Assembly (NCBI GenBank): GCA_021799355.1
Contig: JAJZAQ010000001.1
Coordinates: 89,448-153,447 of the forward strand
Origin: Pseudomonadota bacterium
Lineage (GTDB): Bacteria > Pseudomonadota > Gammaproteobacteria > Burkholderiales > Burkholderiaceae_C
DNA length: 64,000 nt
Reading direction: 5' to 3'
Below, piece after piece: positions 2,660-54,975 of the stretch. Position 1 is the first letter of the stretch. Every line of letters begins with the position of its first letter. Under the pieces are notes generated by a model. The model ran no database searches. It worked only from the letters and a program-made list of their open reading frames with translations, and was not told the origin of the DNA. Position numbers and translations under genes: made by a program.

Positions 2660-3766
2660 TCAGGCCGGAACCTGCAGCTTGTTGCGGTACCACGCATGGA
2701 AGTGGCGCATGCCATCTTCCATCGGGGACTGGTAGGGGCCGTGCTGATCGTCGCCGCGCTCCATCAAGGCTTTGCGCCCGGCATCCATGCGCTCGGCGAT
2801 TTCGTCGTCCTCGGCACAGGTTTCCATGTACGCCGCGCGCTCGGCCATGATGAATTCCCGCTCGAACGCAGCGATCTCCTCCGGGTAGAAAAATTCGACC
2901 ATGTTCAGCGTTTTTTGCGGCTCCAGCGGGAACAGCGTGGAAATCACCAGGACGTGCGGGTACCACTCCAGCATGATGTTGGGGTAGAGCGTCAGCCAGA
3001 TGGCGCCGTGCTCGGGCAACTGTTTGTCCGAGCGGAAATTCAGCACCGCCTGATGCCATTTGCTGTAGACCGCGCTACCCGGGTGCTGCAGGCCCTCGTA
3101 CACGCCCACCGTCTGCACGCTCCACTCCGGGGCGAACTGCCATTGCAGCACGCTGCAATCGACGAACTTGCCCAGTCCCGGGTGGAACGGGACGACGTGA
3201 TAGTCCTCGAGATACACCTCGATGAACGTCTTCCAGTTGTAATTGCAGATGTGCATTTCGGTGTGGTCGTGGACGAAACCGGTGAAGTCGAACTCTTTGA
3301 GCACCGAGAGCTGCTCCATGGTCTGCGCCACGGGATAGCCGTTGTCCTCGAACAGCATGCCGTTCCAGCGCTGCAACGGGTAGCTTTGCAGATGCAGGCA
3401 GGGGTCCTGCTCGAAATGCGGGGCGCCGACGAGCTGGCCGTCCAGACCGTAGGTCCAGCGGTGCAGCGGGCAGACGATGTTTTTGCCCGTGCTGCCCATG
3501 CCGCGCAGCATCACCGCCTGACGGTGGCGGCAGACGTTGGACAGCAACTGGATGCCGTCGTTGGTATGCACCAGGGCGCGGCCTTCGCCCTCCTGCGCCA
3601 GTGCGGCGTAGTCGCCGATTTTGGGTACCGTCAGTTCATGTCCGATGTAGCGTGGGCCGGAACGGAAAATCTGTTCGAGTTCGAGTTTGAACAGATCTTG
3701 GTCGAAATAGGTGGAAACCGGCAACTGCAGATGGTCTTGCGACAAGCGGATGCTCAGATCGGACAT
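2660..3766 (-). CDS. Rieske-type aromatic ring-hydroxylating oxygenase, alpha subunit
   Basis: Rieske motif CRHRQAVMLRGMGSTGKNIVCPLHRWTYGLDG followed by a ring-hydroxylating catalytic domain (NWKTFIEVYLEDYHVVPFHP). Confidence 0.88.
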   Translation of the reverse strand: MSDLSIRLSQDHLQLPVSTYFDQDLFKLELEQIFRSGPRYIGHELTVPKIGDYAALAQEGEGRALVHTNDGIQLLSNVCRHRQAVMLRGMGSTGKNIVCPLHRWTYGLDGQLVGAPHFEQDPCLHLQSYPLQRWNGMLFEDNGYPVAQTMEQLSVLKEFDFTGFVHDHTEMHICNYNWKTFIEVYLEDYHVVPFHPGLGKFVDCSVLQWQFAPEWSVQTVGVYEGLQHPGSAVYSKWHQAVLNFRSDKQLPEHGAIWLTLYPNIMLEWYPHVLVISTLFPLEPQKTLNMVEFFYPEEIAAFEREFIMAERAAYMETCAEDDEIAERMDAGRKALMERGDDQHGPYQSPMEDGMRHFHAWYRNKLQVPA

Positions 3767-3922
3767 GATGGGGGCACACCTCCAGAAGAATAGAAAAGGG
3801 GAAAAGCCGGCCGATTGTAGAACCCCGGCAGCCAGGCGGATCATTGCTCCAGCCTAAAATCAGCAACATTTTCCGACGGCGGCCCTGCGGGTGCGCAGCA
3901 GCCGCCAACCGGTGTCACGCTC

Positions 3923-5163: not shown

Positions 5164-5661
5164 ATGACACGTTTTCCCCGGGCCGAAGCCGTGCGCACCG
5201 CCGCGCCGGCGCTGGCTGCCGCCACCGCCTGCGGCGCGCTCGGCGGCGCGTTGTGGCTGCAGCGCAAAGGATTTGCGCCGTGCCCGCTGTGCATTTTGCA
5301 GCGCATGGCCTACCTGGCGGTGCTGTCGTTTTCGCTATTGGCTGCCGGCCTGTTGCGCACGGGCTGGCGCCGCCTCGCGCTGGGACTGGCGATGCTGGCG
5401 GCGCTGCTCGGCCTGGGTGTCGCCGGGCGCCAGATCTGGCTGGTGTTGCATCCCGGACAGCTTTGCGGCCTGGACCCGTTGGCTGCGGTGATCAACCGCT
5501 GGAGCGTGACGCACTGGGCGCCGTGGATGTTCCGTGCCGATGGCCTGTGCGCCGACACACCGAGCGTTTTCGGTGTGGCACTGCCATTCTGGTCGGCGGC
5601 AGGGTTTGCCGTTGCTTGTGTCTTTTTGCTTGCTGCGGGGTGGCGCCGCAGTGGTTCCTGA
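5164..5661 (+). CDS. dsbB: disulfide bond formation protein B
   Basis: Four-TM protein with CPLCILQR redox pair (CxxC) and periplasmic Cys residues. Confidence 0.9.
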
Positions 5662-34369: not shown

Positions 34370-34436
34370 GCCCCCATTCTACGGGGCGACGGCGGCACGG
34401 CGGCAAACCCGGGTGCAAACGACGTTAACATGCAGG

Positions 34437-34645
34437 ATGTTGGTGCTCGCGCGGCTGTGGCCGCGCAGTTAAACGGGAAACAGGAAGAGCGCTGCCGCCG
34501 GCATGTCCTCCAGCCTGTGCTGCCCCCGCAACGGTCAGCGGCCGAAGGCGCATGCCTTCCGTCCGGACACGCGCCCCACTGAACCCAGCAAGGTTTGGGA
34601 AGGGGGTCCGGATCGTGCCGCCAGCCCGGATACCGGCCAACGACG
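34437..34645 (+). ncRNA. cobalamin riboswitch
   Basis: GGTGCTCGCGCG, ACGGGAAACAGG, GCTGCCCCCGCAACGGT, CACTG...GGGAAGG and B12 box GCCAGCCCGGATACCGGCC, upstream of btuB. Confidence 0.95.
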
Positions 34646-34809
34646 AGAGGGCGGAGCCTCGGGCGGAGGCGGCGCATCCCAGCCAGGGTTGCGCAGCCGA
34701 ACCACGCTGCCCTGAACCGGTGATGCCCGCAGCCAGCCGCAGACCCGCCCTGACCGCGCCCAGCCGTGCGGGGGAACACGGCGGCGCATCCTCATCCGGA
34801 ACGTTGACC

Positions 34810-50699: not shown

Positions 50700-51404
50700 T
50701 TACTCCGTGGCGCTCGAACTCCAGAACGCCTGGCGCACATATGGCAGGCTGGAAAGCTGCTGGGTGATGCGGTCGAGCTCGCCGGGTTCGACCGAATTGG
50801 CCAGCAGACGCACCTCGATTTCCACATCCTGCGCGCCAAACGGATGCACATCCATGTCCTGGTGGGGGTAGTGCGCCAGTTCGAGCAGATTTTCCAGCAT
50901 CGCCCGCGCGTCTTTCTGAAATTCGCGCTGTGCGATCAGCACGACGTTGACGGTGAGCTCGACCCCGGAGGTGTCGACCGGCTGGCGGCTGATGAAATTG
51001 ACCACAGGCCGCAGCAGGGTATTGGCGGCGAGGACGAACGCCGCGGCCAGGCCGGCCTCGGGCAGCAGACCGGCACCGCAGCACGCGCCCACGGCCGCCG
51101 ATCCCCACAGTGTCGCTGCGGTGTTCAGCCCGCGCACATTGCCTTCCTCACGCATGATGACCCCGGCGCCAAGAAAGCCGATGCCCGACACCACGTAGGC
51201 CAGCACGTGGACGGCGCCGGCGGCCTGCTCGATCCGCCCGGCCAGTCCGACGAACACCGCGGCGCCGAGCGCCACCAGCACATTGGTGCGCAGCCCGGCG
51301 GTACGCTGGCGGTATTGCCGCTCGACACCGATCAGCCCACCGAGCACGAAAGCGGCCAGCCAGTGCACGCCCATCGCGGCCAAGCCGTGGTCTTCCGGCG
51401 TCAT
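50700..51404 (-). CDS. MgtC/SapB family protein
   Basis: [67 protein letters not shown]. Confidence 0.93.
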
Positions 51405-51448
51405 GTCATCCCTTTGCGGCAAATGCTGCCGGGTGCGACGTGGAGGCG

Positions 51449-52641
51449 TCAGAACTCGAGGTGAAGCCGCACGCCCAGCACGGTGGCCGGCGGGTTGCTG
51501 CCGCCGGGATGCCACAGACGCTGCAGATCGGGCTGGATGTATACCCCGGATGCGGCTTTGTACGCATAGTTCAGTTCCACCACCGTTTCGGGGTGCGGCT
51601 GCGTCGCCAGATTGGCGCGCGCCAGCCCGAGGCTGAAGTTGTCGTCCGGACGCGAGGCGAACGGACGCTCGACACGCAGCCCGGCGCCGAGATAGTACGG
51701 CACGGGGTTGACCACGCCATTGCTAGCGGCGAGCTGGACGAATACGCCGAGCCGCGGGCCGCTGCGCAAATCCCAGCGGTGCTCGCCGATGGCGTAGGTA
51801 CCGCCGGTGGAGGGGCCGAGCTGCGGGTTGTTCTGCCGCAGATGCCACACGCCGAGTTTGACCACGTCCTGCGCCTGGCCATCGGCCAGCGCTCCGCTGC
51901 GTCGCGCCAGCTCCAGCAGGGCCAGCGCGCCGCTGCGCCAGATGCCGCTGAACCGCGGCGGGTTGGCCTGCCACACCCCGGCCTGCACGGCGTAGCCGTG
52001 ACCCAGATCCGCACCGGCCATGGCGCCCACCCCCGGCGTGGGGAAGGTGGCGATGTCGGCGTTGGCCGTGAGTGTGGGAACCGGCCCGAACGACGCGTTT
52101 TGCAACTGGCTGGCCAGGCCGACGCTGGCGAAGTAGTAATTCACGTCCATGATCCCGGCGCGGACAAAGGCCTTGCCGACATCCTGACGGTAGGTGAACT
52201 GGTACAGCCGCAGGAAATTGCCCGCCCAGTCGTTGCTCGTCGTCTGTACGGCGCCGGTTTGCGCCGGCAGGTTCCCCGTGCTGCGCAAACCCATCACGCT
52301 GAATTCGAACAGGCCACCTGACCACAGCCCGGCTTTGGCCGTGTCGAACTCGCCGCCGAGCTGTAGCAAAGAATCGGCGGCGGAACCCCGGCGCAGCCCA
52401 CCGGCCAACGGCGTGATGATTTCGCTGTCCCAATGGCCGGAGAATGACAACCCGTTTTCGAACGTCTTGAACGGGGGCAGCACCGGGGCGTTGAACGGCG
52501 CGACCTGGAATTCACCGGGGTTGTCTGCCGCGCTGGCAACCGCCGCATCGGGCAGGGTCTGCGCCGAAGCCGGCCAGCCCCCAGGCCCAGGGCCCCGGCC
52601 AGCACGGCGGAAAAAATCGCGGAATGTCGGCGTTGCAGCAT
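51449..52641 (-). pseudogene. carbohydrate-selective (OprB-like) porin, frameshifted in its signal peptide
   Basis: Mature barrel (ENGLSFSGHWDSEIITPLAGGLRRG...[10 protein letters not shown]) in one frame; MLQRRHSAIFSAVLAGALGLG in another. One extra base at the C5/G5 tract 52579-52583 restores a continuous ORF ending the signal peptide in ASAQ. Confidence 0.75.
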
Positions 52642-52773
52642 GATGAAAGGTGCATTGTGGCGGCGCAAGGATGACGCGCACATGACGACGCAAAAGCGCC
52701 TCCGTCCCGGCGAGGAACCGGGAGTAAATAATAATGATTCGCAAATGCGGGCCAGCAGGCCGGCTGAACGGGC

Positions 52774-53001
52774 TCAGCCGGCCACCCGGCCGCTGGTGAA
52801 TGCCCAGGCGACGATGACCGTCAAAACGACGATGTACAGGCGCAGCCCCCAAAACAGGGCGTGCTGCCAGGGCTTGAGGTGGGTGGCGCGATGCACCTCG
52901 GGCAGAGGCTGCAGCCAGCCTTCCTGCTGTGCAATCTGTGCCAGGCGGGCCGATTCGGCCTCGGTCGCATGCCGGCGTTCAGCGGGGGTATGGTGTTGCA
53001 T
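52774..53001 (-). CDS. small single-TM protein downstream of the NRAMP-family gene
   Basis: 75 aa; C-terminal TM segment HALFWGLRLYIVVLTVIVAWAFTSG. Confidence 0.65.
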   Translation of the reverse strand: MQHHTPAERRHATEAESARLAQIAQQEGWLQPLPEVHRATHLKPWQHALFWGLRLYIVVLTVIVAWAFTSGRVAG

Positions 53002-53020: not shown

Positions 53021-54388
53021 TCAGTTGCCGAAGGCGTGAGGAAACAGCGTGGCGATGCCGTACAGCACGTTGCACACGATCAGGCCGGTCATCACCGCCC
53101 AGCTCAGCGCGTTGCGCAGCGGGGTATTGACATACTCGCCCATCAACTCGCGGTCGTTGAGCAGCAGCAGGAGGAACAGCAGCGCCGATGGCATGAACAC
53201 GGTGGCGATGACCTGCACCGACAGGTTGAGGAAACCCAGCGGCACGTGCGGCAGCAGCACCACCGCGGCGGCCAGCGTGGTGCCGGCCAGCGCAGGGGCG
53301 TAGAACCAGACAGCCTGGCGCGGCGGCGCGTTGATCGACCGCGGAATGTCGAAGGCCTCGCCGATGGCCCAGGCGGAACTCGCGGTGATGACGATCGAGG
53401 CGATCAGCCCGGCCTCCATCAGGCCCAGGGCGAACAGCGCCATCGGCACGTCGCCGAGTTTGGCATCGATGCTTTTGAGCACGGCGTCGAATTCCAGGTT
53501 GCTGGCGTCGGGTGCACCATGCAGCGTTTGCGCCGCCAGAATGATCAGCGCCATGGCCACGAGCATCATGCCAACGATGCCTAGCTTGAGTTCGCGACGG
53601 CTGGCGACGATGTCCTTGGGCAGCACGCCTTTGTCGACGACGCACGATTGCTGGAAAAACAGCTGCCACGGAGCGATGGTCGTGCCGATATTTGCCGACA
53701 GCAGCACCAAGAACGTCACGGAAAGGAAACCCCCGGGCACGACCCAGCCGTGTCCGCCGAAAGCTGCGGCCACGGCGTGCCAGTCAGGATGCGCCATGAA
53801 CGCCAGCGGCACGAACACCAGGTTGAACGCAGCCACGGCCAGCGCCACCCGCTCCCAGGTGTAATAGCGCAGCGCAATCAGCGTGAAGGCAATGAACGCC
53901 AGCGCCGCCGGCACGGTGATCCACGCGGCAATGCCCAGCACCTCGCCGCCAATGCGGATGCCGACGAACTCGGTCATCAGGGTCAGGACGTTGGCCGCGA
54001 CCAGATCGATCAGCGAGAACCAGCCCCAGAACGGGCCGTAACGCTTCCAGATCAGCTCGGCATGGCCGCGGCGGGTGACGGCGCCCAGCCGGATGGTCAT
54101 TTCCTGCACCAGATAGGCGATGAAACCCAGCAGAATCATCATCGGCAGAAAAATCCCCAGGCCGTAGGCGGCACCGGTTTGCGCATAGGTGAGGACGCCG
54201 CCGGCATCGTTGTCGCCGAGCATCACCAGCACGCCGGGCCCGATCAGCGCCAGGCCGAGCGCCAGACGGTTCCACAGCCCGCGGCGGCTGCGCAGTTCGT
54301 GCAGCATCAGCCGGTCGCGCAGGCGGTGTTCCAGCCCGGCCAGGTCGGGGTTGGCCGGGGCCAGGACGTGTTCTTGCGGGGCGCTCAT
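53021..54388 (-). CDS. divergent NRAMP-family divalent metal transporter
   Basis: GPGVLVMLGDNDAGGVLTYAQTGAAYG and LLSANIGTTIAPWQLFFQQS in the positions of TM1 and TM6; 11-12 TM. Confidence 0.85.
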   Translation of the reverse strand: MSAPQEHVLAPANPDLAGLEHRLRDRLMLHELRSRRGLWNRLALGLALIGPGVLVMLGDNDAGGVLTYAQTGAAYGLGIFLPMMILLGFIAYLVQEMTIRLGAVTRRGHAELIWKRYGPFWGWFSLIDLVAANVLTLMTEFVGIRIGGEVLGIAAWITVPAALAFIAFTLIALRYYTWERVALAVAAFNLVFVPLAFMAHPDWHAVAAAFGGHGWVVPGGFLSVTFLVLLSANIGTTIAPWQLFFQQSCVVDKGVLPKDIVASRRELKLGIVGMMLVAMALIILAAQTLHGAPDASNLEFDAVLKSIDAKLGDVPMALFALGLMEAGLIASIVITASSAWAIGEAFDIPRSINAPPRQAVWFYAPALAGTTLAAAVVLLPHVPLGFLNLSVQVIATVFMPSALLFLLLLLNDRELMGEYVNTPLRNALSWAVMTGLIVCNVLYGIATLFPHAFGN

Positions 54389-54579
54389 TCCACTCCCCCC
54401 TGGCGGTGCGGTGCAGACAGCGAAACACCGAGCGCGGCGGCGTGTAGCCGCGGCCAGCCACTGGCTGGCGCCTGCGGGCTGCGCGGCGCTGGCCGCGATG
54501 CAGACGGGTTGGGCAGGGCGCCGAGCTGGCGCAGCCACAAGCCGCGGTGTGTCACGCGGAAAAGATCCTGGATCTGCAT
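54385..54579 (-). CDS. short proline-rich leader ORF upstream of the NRAMP-family gene
   Basis: MQIQDLFRVTHRGLWLRQLGALPNPSASRPAPRSPQAPASGWPRLH...; strong SD GGAAGGAGG; TGA overlaps the transporter ATG. Confidence 0.5.
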   Translation of the reverse strand: MQIQDLFRVTHRGLWLRQLGALPNPSASRPAPRSPQAPASGWPRLHAAALGVSLSAPHRQGGVE

Positions 54580-54757
54580 ACCTTCCTCCTTCCGTCTGCG
54601 GCGCGGGCAGACGGCAAACTCACCGGGACGAACCCGATGTGACTGCGGCATGGATGCCCACACCGCAGCGGTTGACAACAAGAAGAGGGGGGATGCTGCG
54701 CCCCGCTTGCGCCAATCCGCGGCATGGGTTGCGCGGAAGGGCTGCGTTGCACGCGGG

Positions 54758-54849
54758 GCGTCGCGTCACCACCGGCCGGTAGCGGCCGGGCGACGCAGGA
54801 ATTGTCGACAGGCCGCCTTCAGGCGTTCACTTCACGAATCGATCGACAA
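54758..54849 (-). other. structured 5' leader (two compound hairpins) upstream of the NRAMP leader ORF
   Basis: TTGTCGA...TCGACAA enclosing CGCC-TGAA-GGCG, then GCGTCGC...GCGACGC enclosing CCGGCC-GCTACC-GGCCGG. Confidence 0.45.
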
Positions 54850-54975
54850 CTACCAGAACTGTCCATTGAGTCACACTGCGCCGCAGTCGGCGCAATTCAC
54901 CAAAGCACAAAATCATAATCGCAGTTTGCGCGCTGCAACAAGGGGTATGGCAGCGTGCGCGGCAGAAAAATGCAA

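Follow-up and report, generated by a model that had tools for sequence, protein, structure and literature searches.

What the leader in front of an NRAMP-family metal transporter gene senses, and by what means, is the question raised by this locus. The window (the whole stretch of DNA analysed, 64,000 nucleotides) carries the gene on its minus strand, and the initial annotation read the region upstream of it as a possible Mg/Mn-sensing attenuator with a proline-rich leader ORF. Our analysis gives a probability of about two in three to an explanation in which this region serves a magnesium-import operon as its 5′ leader and belongs, as a divergent member, to a leader family shared by nrmT, mgtA and OprB-porin operons. 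Part of the same explanation is the proposed mechanism, in which translation of a short upstream ORF (uORF) would read out Mg2+ and switch a structure masking a Shine-Dalgarno (SD) sequence, in a manner similar to MgtL but unrelated to it. The transporter gene and its downstream neighbours are:

53021–54388, minus strand: 455-aa transporter of the NRAMP family, NRMT (magnesium) type (Pfam PF01566, 204.6 bits)
52774–53001, minus strand: 75-aa small protein with a single TM, directly after NRMT
51449–52852, minus strand: OprB-family porin (Pfam PF04966), start codon uncertain
50700–51515, minus strand: MgtC/SapB-family protein (Pfam PF02308)

The metal site of the transporter consists of DNDAGG in TM1 (D60–G63) and GTTIAPW in TM6 (T235–A238), corresponding to DxxG/TxxA. 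The combination of DxxG in TM1 and TxxA/T in TM6 is the signature of NRMT magnesium transporters (PMC8806188), and the same DxxG + TxxA signature is found in NrmT/NRMT of Clostridium and Eggerthella (PMC4072509, PMC8806188). In the window's genome, a canonical NRAMP (L001) carries GATVMPH in TM6 instead. These residues support the assignment of the window transporter as a magnesium-type NRAMP. This putative Mg2+ transporter differs from the Clostridium and Eggerthella proteins in its conserved 75-aa neighbour and in belonging to a clade that occurs mainly in acidophiles (acidophilic Proteobacteria with 66%–76% identity: Rhodanobacter, Acidocella, Acidiferrobacter and MAGs); relatives at 65% identity are located on Acidiphilium plasmids. 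One NrmT, from Acidobacterium, acted as a Mn transporter (PMC4072509), so the Mg2+ specificity of the window NRMT is uncertain. In Bacillota, the M-box Mg2+ riboswitch (ykoK, RF00380) occupies the same place as the window leader, directly 5′ of all four orthologous NRMT genes examined (54%–58% identity). Counterparts of the 75-aa protein (tblastn, 36%–61% identity) follow nearly every NRMT ortholog, including those in Bacillota; the protein has no Pfam or NCBIfam match and is a possible partner of the transporter. In Acidocella and Acidiphilium, too, an MgtC gene lies 3′ of NRMT.

The leader contains the following features, in the direction of transcription:

54912–54941, minus strand: candidate promoter TTGTTG-18-TATGAT just 5′ of the leader, a weak match read from the sequence
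54877–54894, minus strand: P0, a small GC hairpin (TGCGCCG-ACTG-CGGCGCA) separating the candidate promoter from the uORF, read from the sequence
54819–54866, minus strand: uORF of 15 codons, MDSSGSCRSIREVNA, with positional and peptide equivalents in NRMT and mgtA leaders
54798–54854, minus strand: P1 hairpin, in which the uORF coding region pairs with the sequence directly 3′ (predicted fold)
54762–54797, minus strand: P2, a strong GC-rich hairpin corresponding to the 2:3 hairpin of mgtA-type leaders (predicted fold)
54699–54760, minus strand: P3, a third hairpin, compound in the window and simple in relatives (predicted fold)
54682–54692, minus strand: C-rich tract CCCCCCTCTTC, a candidate anti-SD element
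54585–54593, minus strand: SD GGAAGGAGG of the 64-aa ORF, predicted to be masked by the C-rich tract
54385–54579, minus strand: 64-aa small ORF with an ATGA overlap with the transporter ATG (54388–54386)

The two hairpins described in the initial annotation were recovered in the fold as P1 (54854–54798) and P2 (54797–54762), and its view of a structured leader stands; it had overlooked the 15-codon uORF, P3 and the C-rich tract. The arms of P1 (54854–54842 with 54809–54798) enclose an inner hairpin, GCC-UGAA-GGC (54831–54810), within which the uORF stop codon TGA is located, and the arms of P2 pair 54797–54783 with 54778–54762. In folding calculations, the 301-nt leader was more stable than every one of its 100 dinucleotide-shuffled versions (z = −2.78). 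The topology of P1 is the same in L006, L007, L024, L025, L027, L104 and L026, and its 5′ side is formed by uORF coding RNA in the window, L006, L007, L024–L027 and L104. Small GC hairpins resembling P0 are present 5′ of the uORF in L007, L024, L025, L027 and L104. The candidate promoter was not called by a consensus scan; TTGAC-17/18-TAnnnT sequences are found at the equivalent place in L007, L024, L027 and L104. At the C-rich tract, CCCCCTCTTCGTG is kept in L006, L007 and L027, with a similar sequence in L104. The window leader has a C/U-rich tract and lacks an intrinsic terminator, the sole terminator-like site being 5′ of the uORF.

The window uORF matches the pattern NTG-[DGE]-[SC] at the 5′ end of the leader. 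The equivalent peptide is MDCDPSRSSLSA in L007, L024, L025 and L027, MDSDSCRSVK in L006, MDSCPSRSCSK in L026, MGSYCCHPLK in L104 and MGSSSDTFSA in the Acidiferrobacter-type leaders. Judging from these peptides, the conserved leader peptide is encoded by the short Ser/Cys-rich uORF 5′ of the 64-aa ORF and is not Pro-rich.

A covariance model trained on six NRMT leaders, with the window excluded (R2), matched the window at 54866–54764 on the minus strand (E = 2e-5), the top match in the 2.9-Mb genome. The uORF pattern TGGACAGTN{0,12}AGTCGATC, searched gene-blind in 399 genomes of the order, gave 11 matches vs. 1 with the reversed control. Nine of these loci were inspected: five were 5′ of a P-type ATPase, one of an OprB porin and one of an NRMT, one was a leader copy in inverted orientation to which no clear gene could be assigned, and the ninth, L132, with a spacing of 4 and no SRS motif, was probably a chance match. 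The two other matches were the known NRMT leaders of G069 and G114. The P-type ATPase was identified as MgtA by TIGR01524 (1142 bits vs. a cut-off of 610.75). A model built from mgtA leaders (R1) found 21 leaders in 18 of the 399 genomes, covering 14 genera; six of the 21 were its training sequences or near-copies. According to ORF translations, supplemented by family searches for examples, mgtA was located 3′ of 15 of these 21 leaders (once behind a porin and once behind a 258-aa ORF), a porin alone of two, and a NitT/TauT-like ABC permease with an AAA_assoc_C ATPase of three, with no clear gene for the remaining one. No leader was found by R1 in 274 genomes sampled from the class, which speaks for its specificity and is silent on divergent members. 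R1 gave no direct match to the window, and matched the NRMT leaders L006 (E = 6e-5), L104 and L105 (E = 0.002–0.003); R2 matched the mgtA leaders L128, L134 and L137 (E = 0.001–0.002). Since the two models matched each other's leaders, the mgtA and NRMT leader sets are homologous. The earlier reading of a possible Mg/Mn-sensing attenuator holds in part: a structured leader with a leader peptide precedes a magnesium-type NRAMP, and the NRMT signature, the Bacillota M-boxes and the homologous mgtA leaders all speak for the link to Mg2+, whereas Mn sensing is unsupported.

Some leaders occurred in other arrangements. In Ralstonia soli (L069), two leader copies appear to be present in one operon, the first (3710–3853) before an OprB porin and the second (5440–5573) before an NRMT. 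At L170 and L192 (G057 C308), a near-identical inverted leader copy with no clear gene of its own was found 3′ of mgtA, L192 being an inverted copy of the L178 leader. At L196, L198 and L199, the uORF leader was 5′ of a 577-aa ABC permease and an AAA_assoc_C ATPase, with no adjacent gene for a binding protein observed; this permease and ATPase are a candidate Mg2+ importer.

Translation of the uORF was weighed against a true riboswitch, in which the conserved NTGGACAGT..AGTCGATC would form part of an aptamer binding Mg2+ or another ligand and the uORF would be incidental. The strong nucleotide conservation, including the wobble positions (AGT, TGT, CGA), and the covariation of P1 are consistent with an aptamer, as are the result of a codon-substitution test in the uORF, which detected no synonymous excess (15% synonymous in frame 0), and the absence of an SD in the window's subgroup. 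Given this lack of synonymous excess, conservation of the uORF may be largely at the RNA level, and the case for translation rests on the SD, the start and stop codons and the in-frame indels. However, an SD was correctly spaced before 33 of 46 uORFs (partly non-independent) vs. 2.0 expected, and before nearly all uORFs among 20 mgtA-type leaders. No SD was found before the uORFs of the window and its close relatives, which start with ATG, as do nearly all uORFs without an SD; the missing SD is a trait of this subgroup. Furthermore, the start codons alternate among ATG, GTG and TTG, the stops are in frame, and insertions occur in multiples of three. P1 is also short, and several relatives have a different sequence in its place, unlike an aptamer core. 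Scans of the window, the leader and relatives against Rfam 15, at curated and loose thresholds, detected neither a Mg nor a Mn riboswitch in any of the proteobacterial leaders; in particular, no covariance-model match was obtained for the M-box (RF00380) in the window or the mgtA-type leaders, or for the yybP-ykoY Mn2+ riboswitch in the window or its leader. The remark in the initial annotation that the hairpins fit no recognised riboswitch was borne out, with zero Rfam matches even at permissive settings. A riboswitch is, on balance, unlikely, and we infer that the window's own uORF is translated. Elsewhere in the window, a cobalamin riboswitch (RF00174, 70.9 bits) is located at 34424–34655 on the plus strand.

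The codon choice of the uORFs is distinctive. Ser and Cys account for 53% of uORF codons 2–9, mostly as AGU and UGU. Within these codons, Ser is encoded by AGU in 85 of 137 cases, compared with 9 of 239 in transporter genes; the corresponding counts are 22 of 25 vs. 7 of 272 for CGA among Arg codons and 30 of 45 vs. 5 of 32 for UGU among Cys codons. The codons dominating the uORFs are mostly rare. This composition might also indicate a serine/cysteine attenuator, in which scarcity of charged tRNA-Ser(GCU) or tRNA-Cys would stall the ribosome and make Mg2+ import depend on amino-acid status, a role played by proline in the case of MgtL. The attenuator-typical exclusive 1:2 and 2:3 pairings around the uORF stop, which the mgtA-type leaders share with amino-acid biosynthesis attenuators, would fit as well. 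Unlike such attenuators, however, the window leader has no intrinsic terminator, and the targets are ion transporters and porins rather than Ser/Cys biosynthesis; moreover, the Bacillota orthologs use a Mg2+ riboswitch. A response to Ser or Cys supply is accordingly quite unlikely.

Covariation was assessed in an alignment of 20 mgtA-type leaders (A6); 2:3 and P3 were part of the model used for this alignment, and P1 and the 1:2 helix, in which the end of the uORF pairs with the 5′ arm of P2, were left out of it. P1, the 1:2 helix and the intervening hairpin together showed 21 double-changed cells vs. 6.7 in shuffled data, and P1, 2:3 and P3 showed 54 vs. 14.5. In P2 (2:3), 97% of the cells were paired and both-side changes occurred in 5 of 13 pairs; in P3, they occurred in all seven pairs. 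As far as these alignments indicate, 1:2 and 2:3 are mutually exclusive in mgtA-type leaders, in the manner of an attenuator, and the 1:2 alternative is also supported in Acidiferrobacter-type leaders. Covariation, for which a search on ortholog leaders had been suggested in the initial annotation, was found for P1, 1:2, 2:3 and P3 of the mgtA-type leaders; in the window, by contrast, 1:2 was no better than chance (527 of 1000 shuffles), as in L006, L007 and L027, so that a switch in this subgroup would have to act through P1 itself. A constitutive leader, whose hairpins merely stabilise the mRNA without regulation, might be considered in a GC-rich genome, but the uORF and the pairings are kept across genera and before different transporter families, making this very unlikely.

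Pairing of the C-rich tract with the SD of the 64-aa ORF was predicted with P = 0.99 in the window, 0.85 in L007 and L104 and 0.61 in L027, and was weak in L006 (0.18 for pairing with the pyrimidine tract). In mgtA-type leaders, similar modelling predicted that tracts mask the first-gene SD in some cases (e.g., L177, L178, L187 and L194) and not in others. The Acidocella and Acidiphilium NRMT leaders (L041–L046, L049, L125 and L126) carry another uORF, of the MNPRST..SDSRR type. Read by eye, their anti-SD and SD arms appear to co-vary (AUCCCUCC/GGAGGGAU, GGCCUCC/GGAGGCC); MAFFT misaligned these alphaproteobacterial segments, so no pair counts are claimed for them. Their relation to the rest of the leader family is putative.

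The proposed mechanism builds on what comparison of the leaders has shown at the sequence level, namely their homology, their association with particular genes, the SD and frame of the family's uORFs, and the covarying, exclusive pairings of the mgtA type. By analogy with MgtL, the ribosome is most likely the sensor. It would translate the very short Ser/Cys-rich uORF, the coding RNA of which doubles as part of P1, and its progress would set which downstream pairing forms and whether the first-gene SD is masked, the masking being a structure prediction. Rho might also stop the transcript, depending on ribosome progress. At low Mg2+, stalling or drop-off in the AGU/UGU/CGA run would favour 1:2 and turn the operon ON; at high Mg2+, complete translation of the uORF would lead to 2:3 and SD masking, and the operon would be OFF. 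We infer Mg2+ as the signal and this ON/OFF polarity, and hypothesise that slow decoding of AGU, UGU and CGA serves as the Mg2+ readout. A broader proposal is that this leader-peptide family senses Mg2+ by codon rather than by peptide, through slowing or drop-off at rare wobble-read codons at low Mg2+, and that a single leader design has been put to use repeatedly: 5′ of two or more unrelated Mg2+ importers, of a porin and of a predicted new ABC importer for Mg2+. This proposal is tentative and rather doubtful.

Mg2+-reporting leader peptides are known from enteric bacteria, and none was described for the bacteria concerned here in the open-access literature searched. MgtL of enteric mgtA, which acts through intrinsic ribosome destabilisation and Rho, is likewise a short uORF with which the mRNA of a Mg2+ importer begins; both it and the new family precede mgtA, and in both, translation of the uORF is proposed to determine how the RNA 3′ of it folds. 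In MgtL, low Mg2+ causes ribosome drop-off at the EPDP motif (PMC11282234). Whereas MgtL is an EPDP-type acidic/proline peptide, the peptides of the new family lack EPDP and are Ser/Cys-rich with AGU/UGU/CGA; the new family also differs in its predicted SD masking and in its occurrence before NRMT, OprB and ABC transporter genes. Membership of the window leader in MgtL was ruled out by the missing acidic/proline motif, and its earlier description as an unrelated analogue agrees with the absence of this motif from the uORF peptides. The pe20 M-box of M. tuberculosis (PMC12810186) likewise belongs to a leader linked to Mg2+, has a translational platform and is separated from its operon by a conserved small ORF; the switch there is an M-box aptamer, which the window leader does not contain. 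Neither Rfam 15 nor the open-access literature searched contained this leader family, its peptide, the range of taxa in which it occurs or its position 5′ of NRMT and porin genes, which points to a so far undescribed family within a known kind of control, that of Mg2+ importers by leader peptides. Homology between the leaders of MgtA and NRMT would mean that genes for Mg2+ uptake are marked by one RNA/peptide switch, and would support Mg2+ as the substrate of this NRMT clade. It would also nominate new Mg2+ genes, namely OprB-type porins, the ABC permease with the AAA_assoc_C ATPase and the 75-aa NRMT neighbour. With a rare-codon peptide free of the acidic/proline motif, ribosomal Mg2+ readout becomes directly testable.

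The 64-aa ORF, its SD GGAAGGAGG (54593–54585) and the overlap of its stop with the transporter ATG are all present as the initial annotation had described them. Positional equivalents of 63–68 aa are found in L006, L007, L025, L027 and L104 and have a common C-terminal DVRLASLG-like core, which has diverged in the window. The proposal that this Pro-rich ORF is itself the sensing leader peptide could point to its SD, the ATG overlap and its eight prolines, but it is the least probable of all the readings, because the prolines vary among homologues in number (2–8) and spacing, a DVRLASLG-like core is conserved instead, and the ORF is followed by just the ATGA overlap, with no attenuator structure 3′ of it. 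A more fitting reading of the 64-aa ORF is that of a small gene with translational coupling to NRMT, in a position comparable to that of the small ORF 3′ of the pe20 M-box in M. tuberculosis (PMC12810186).
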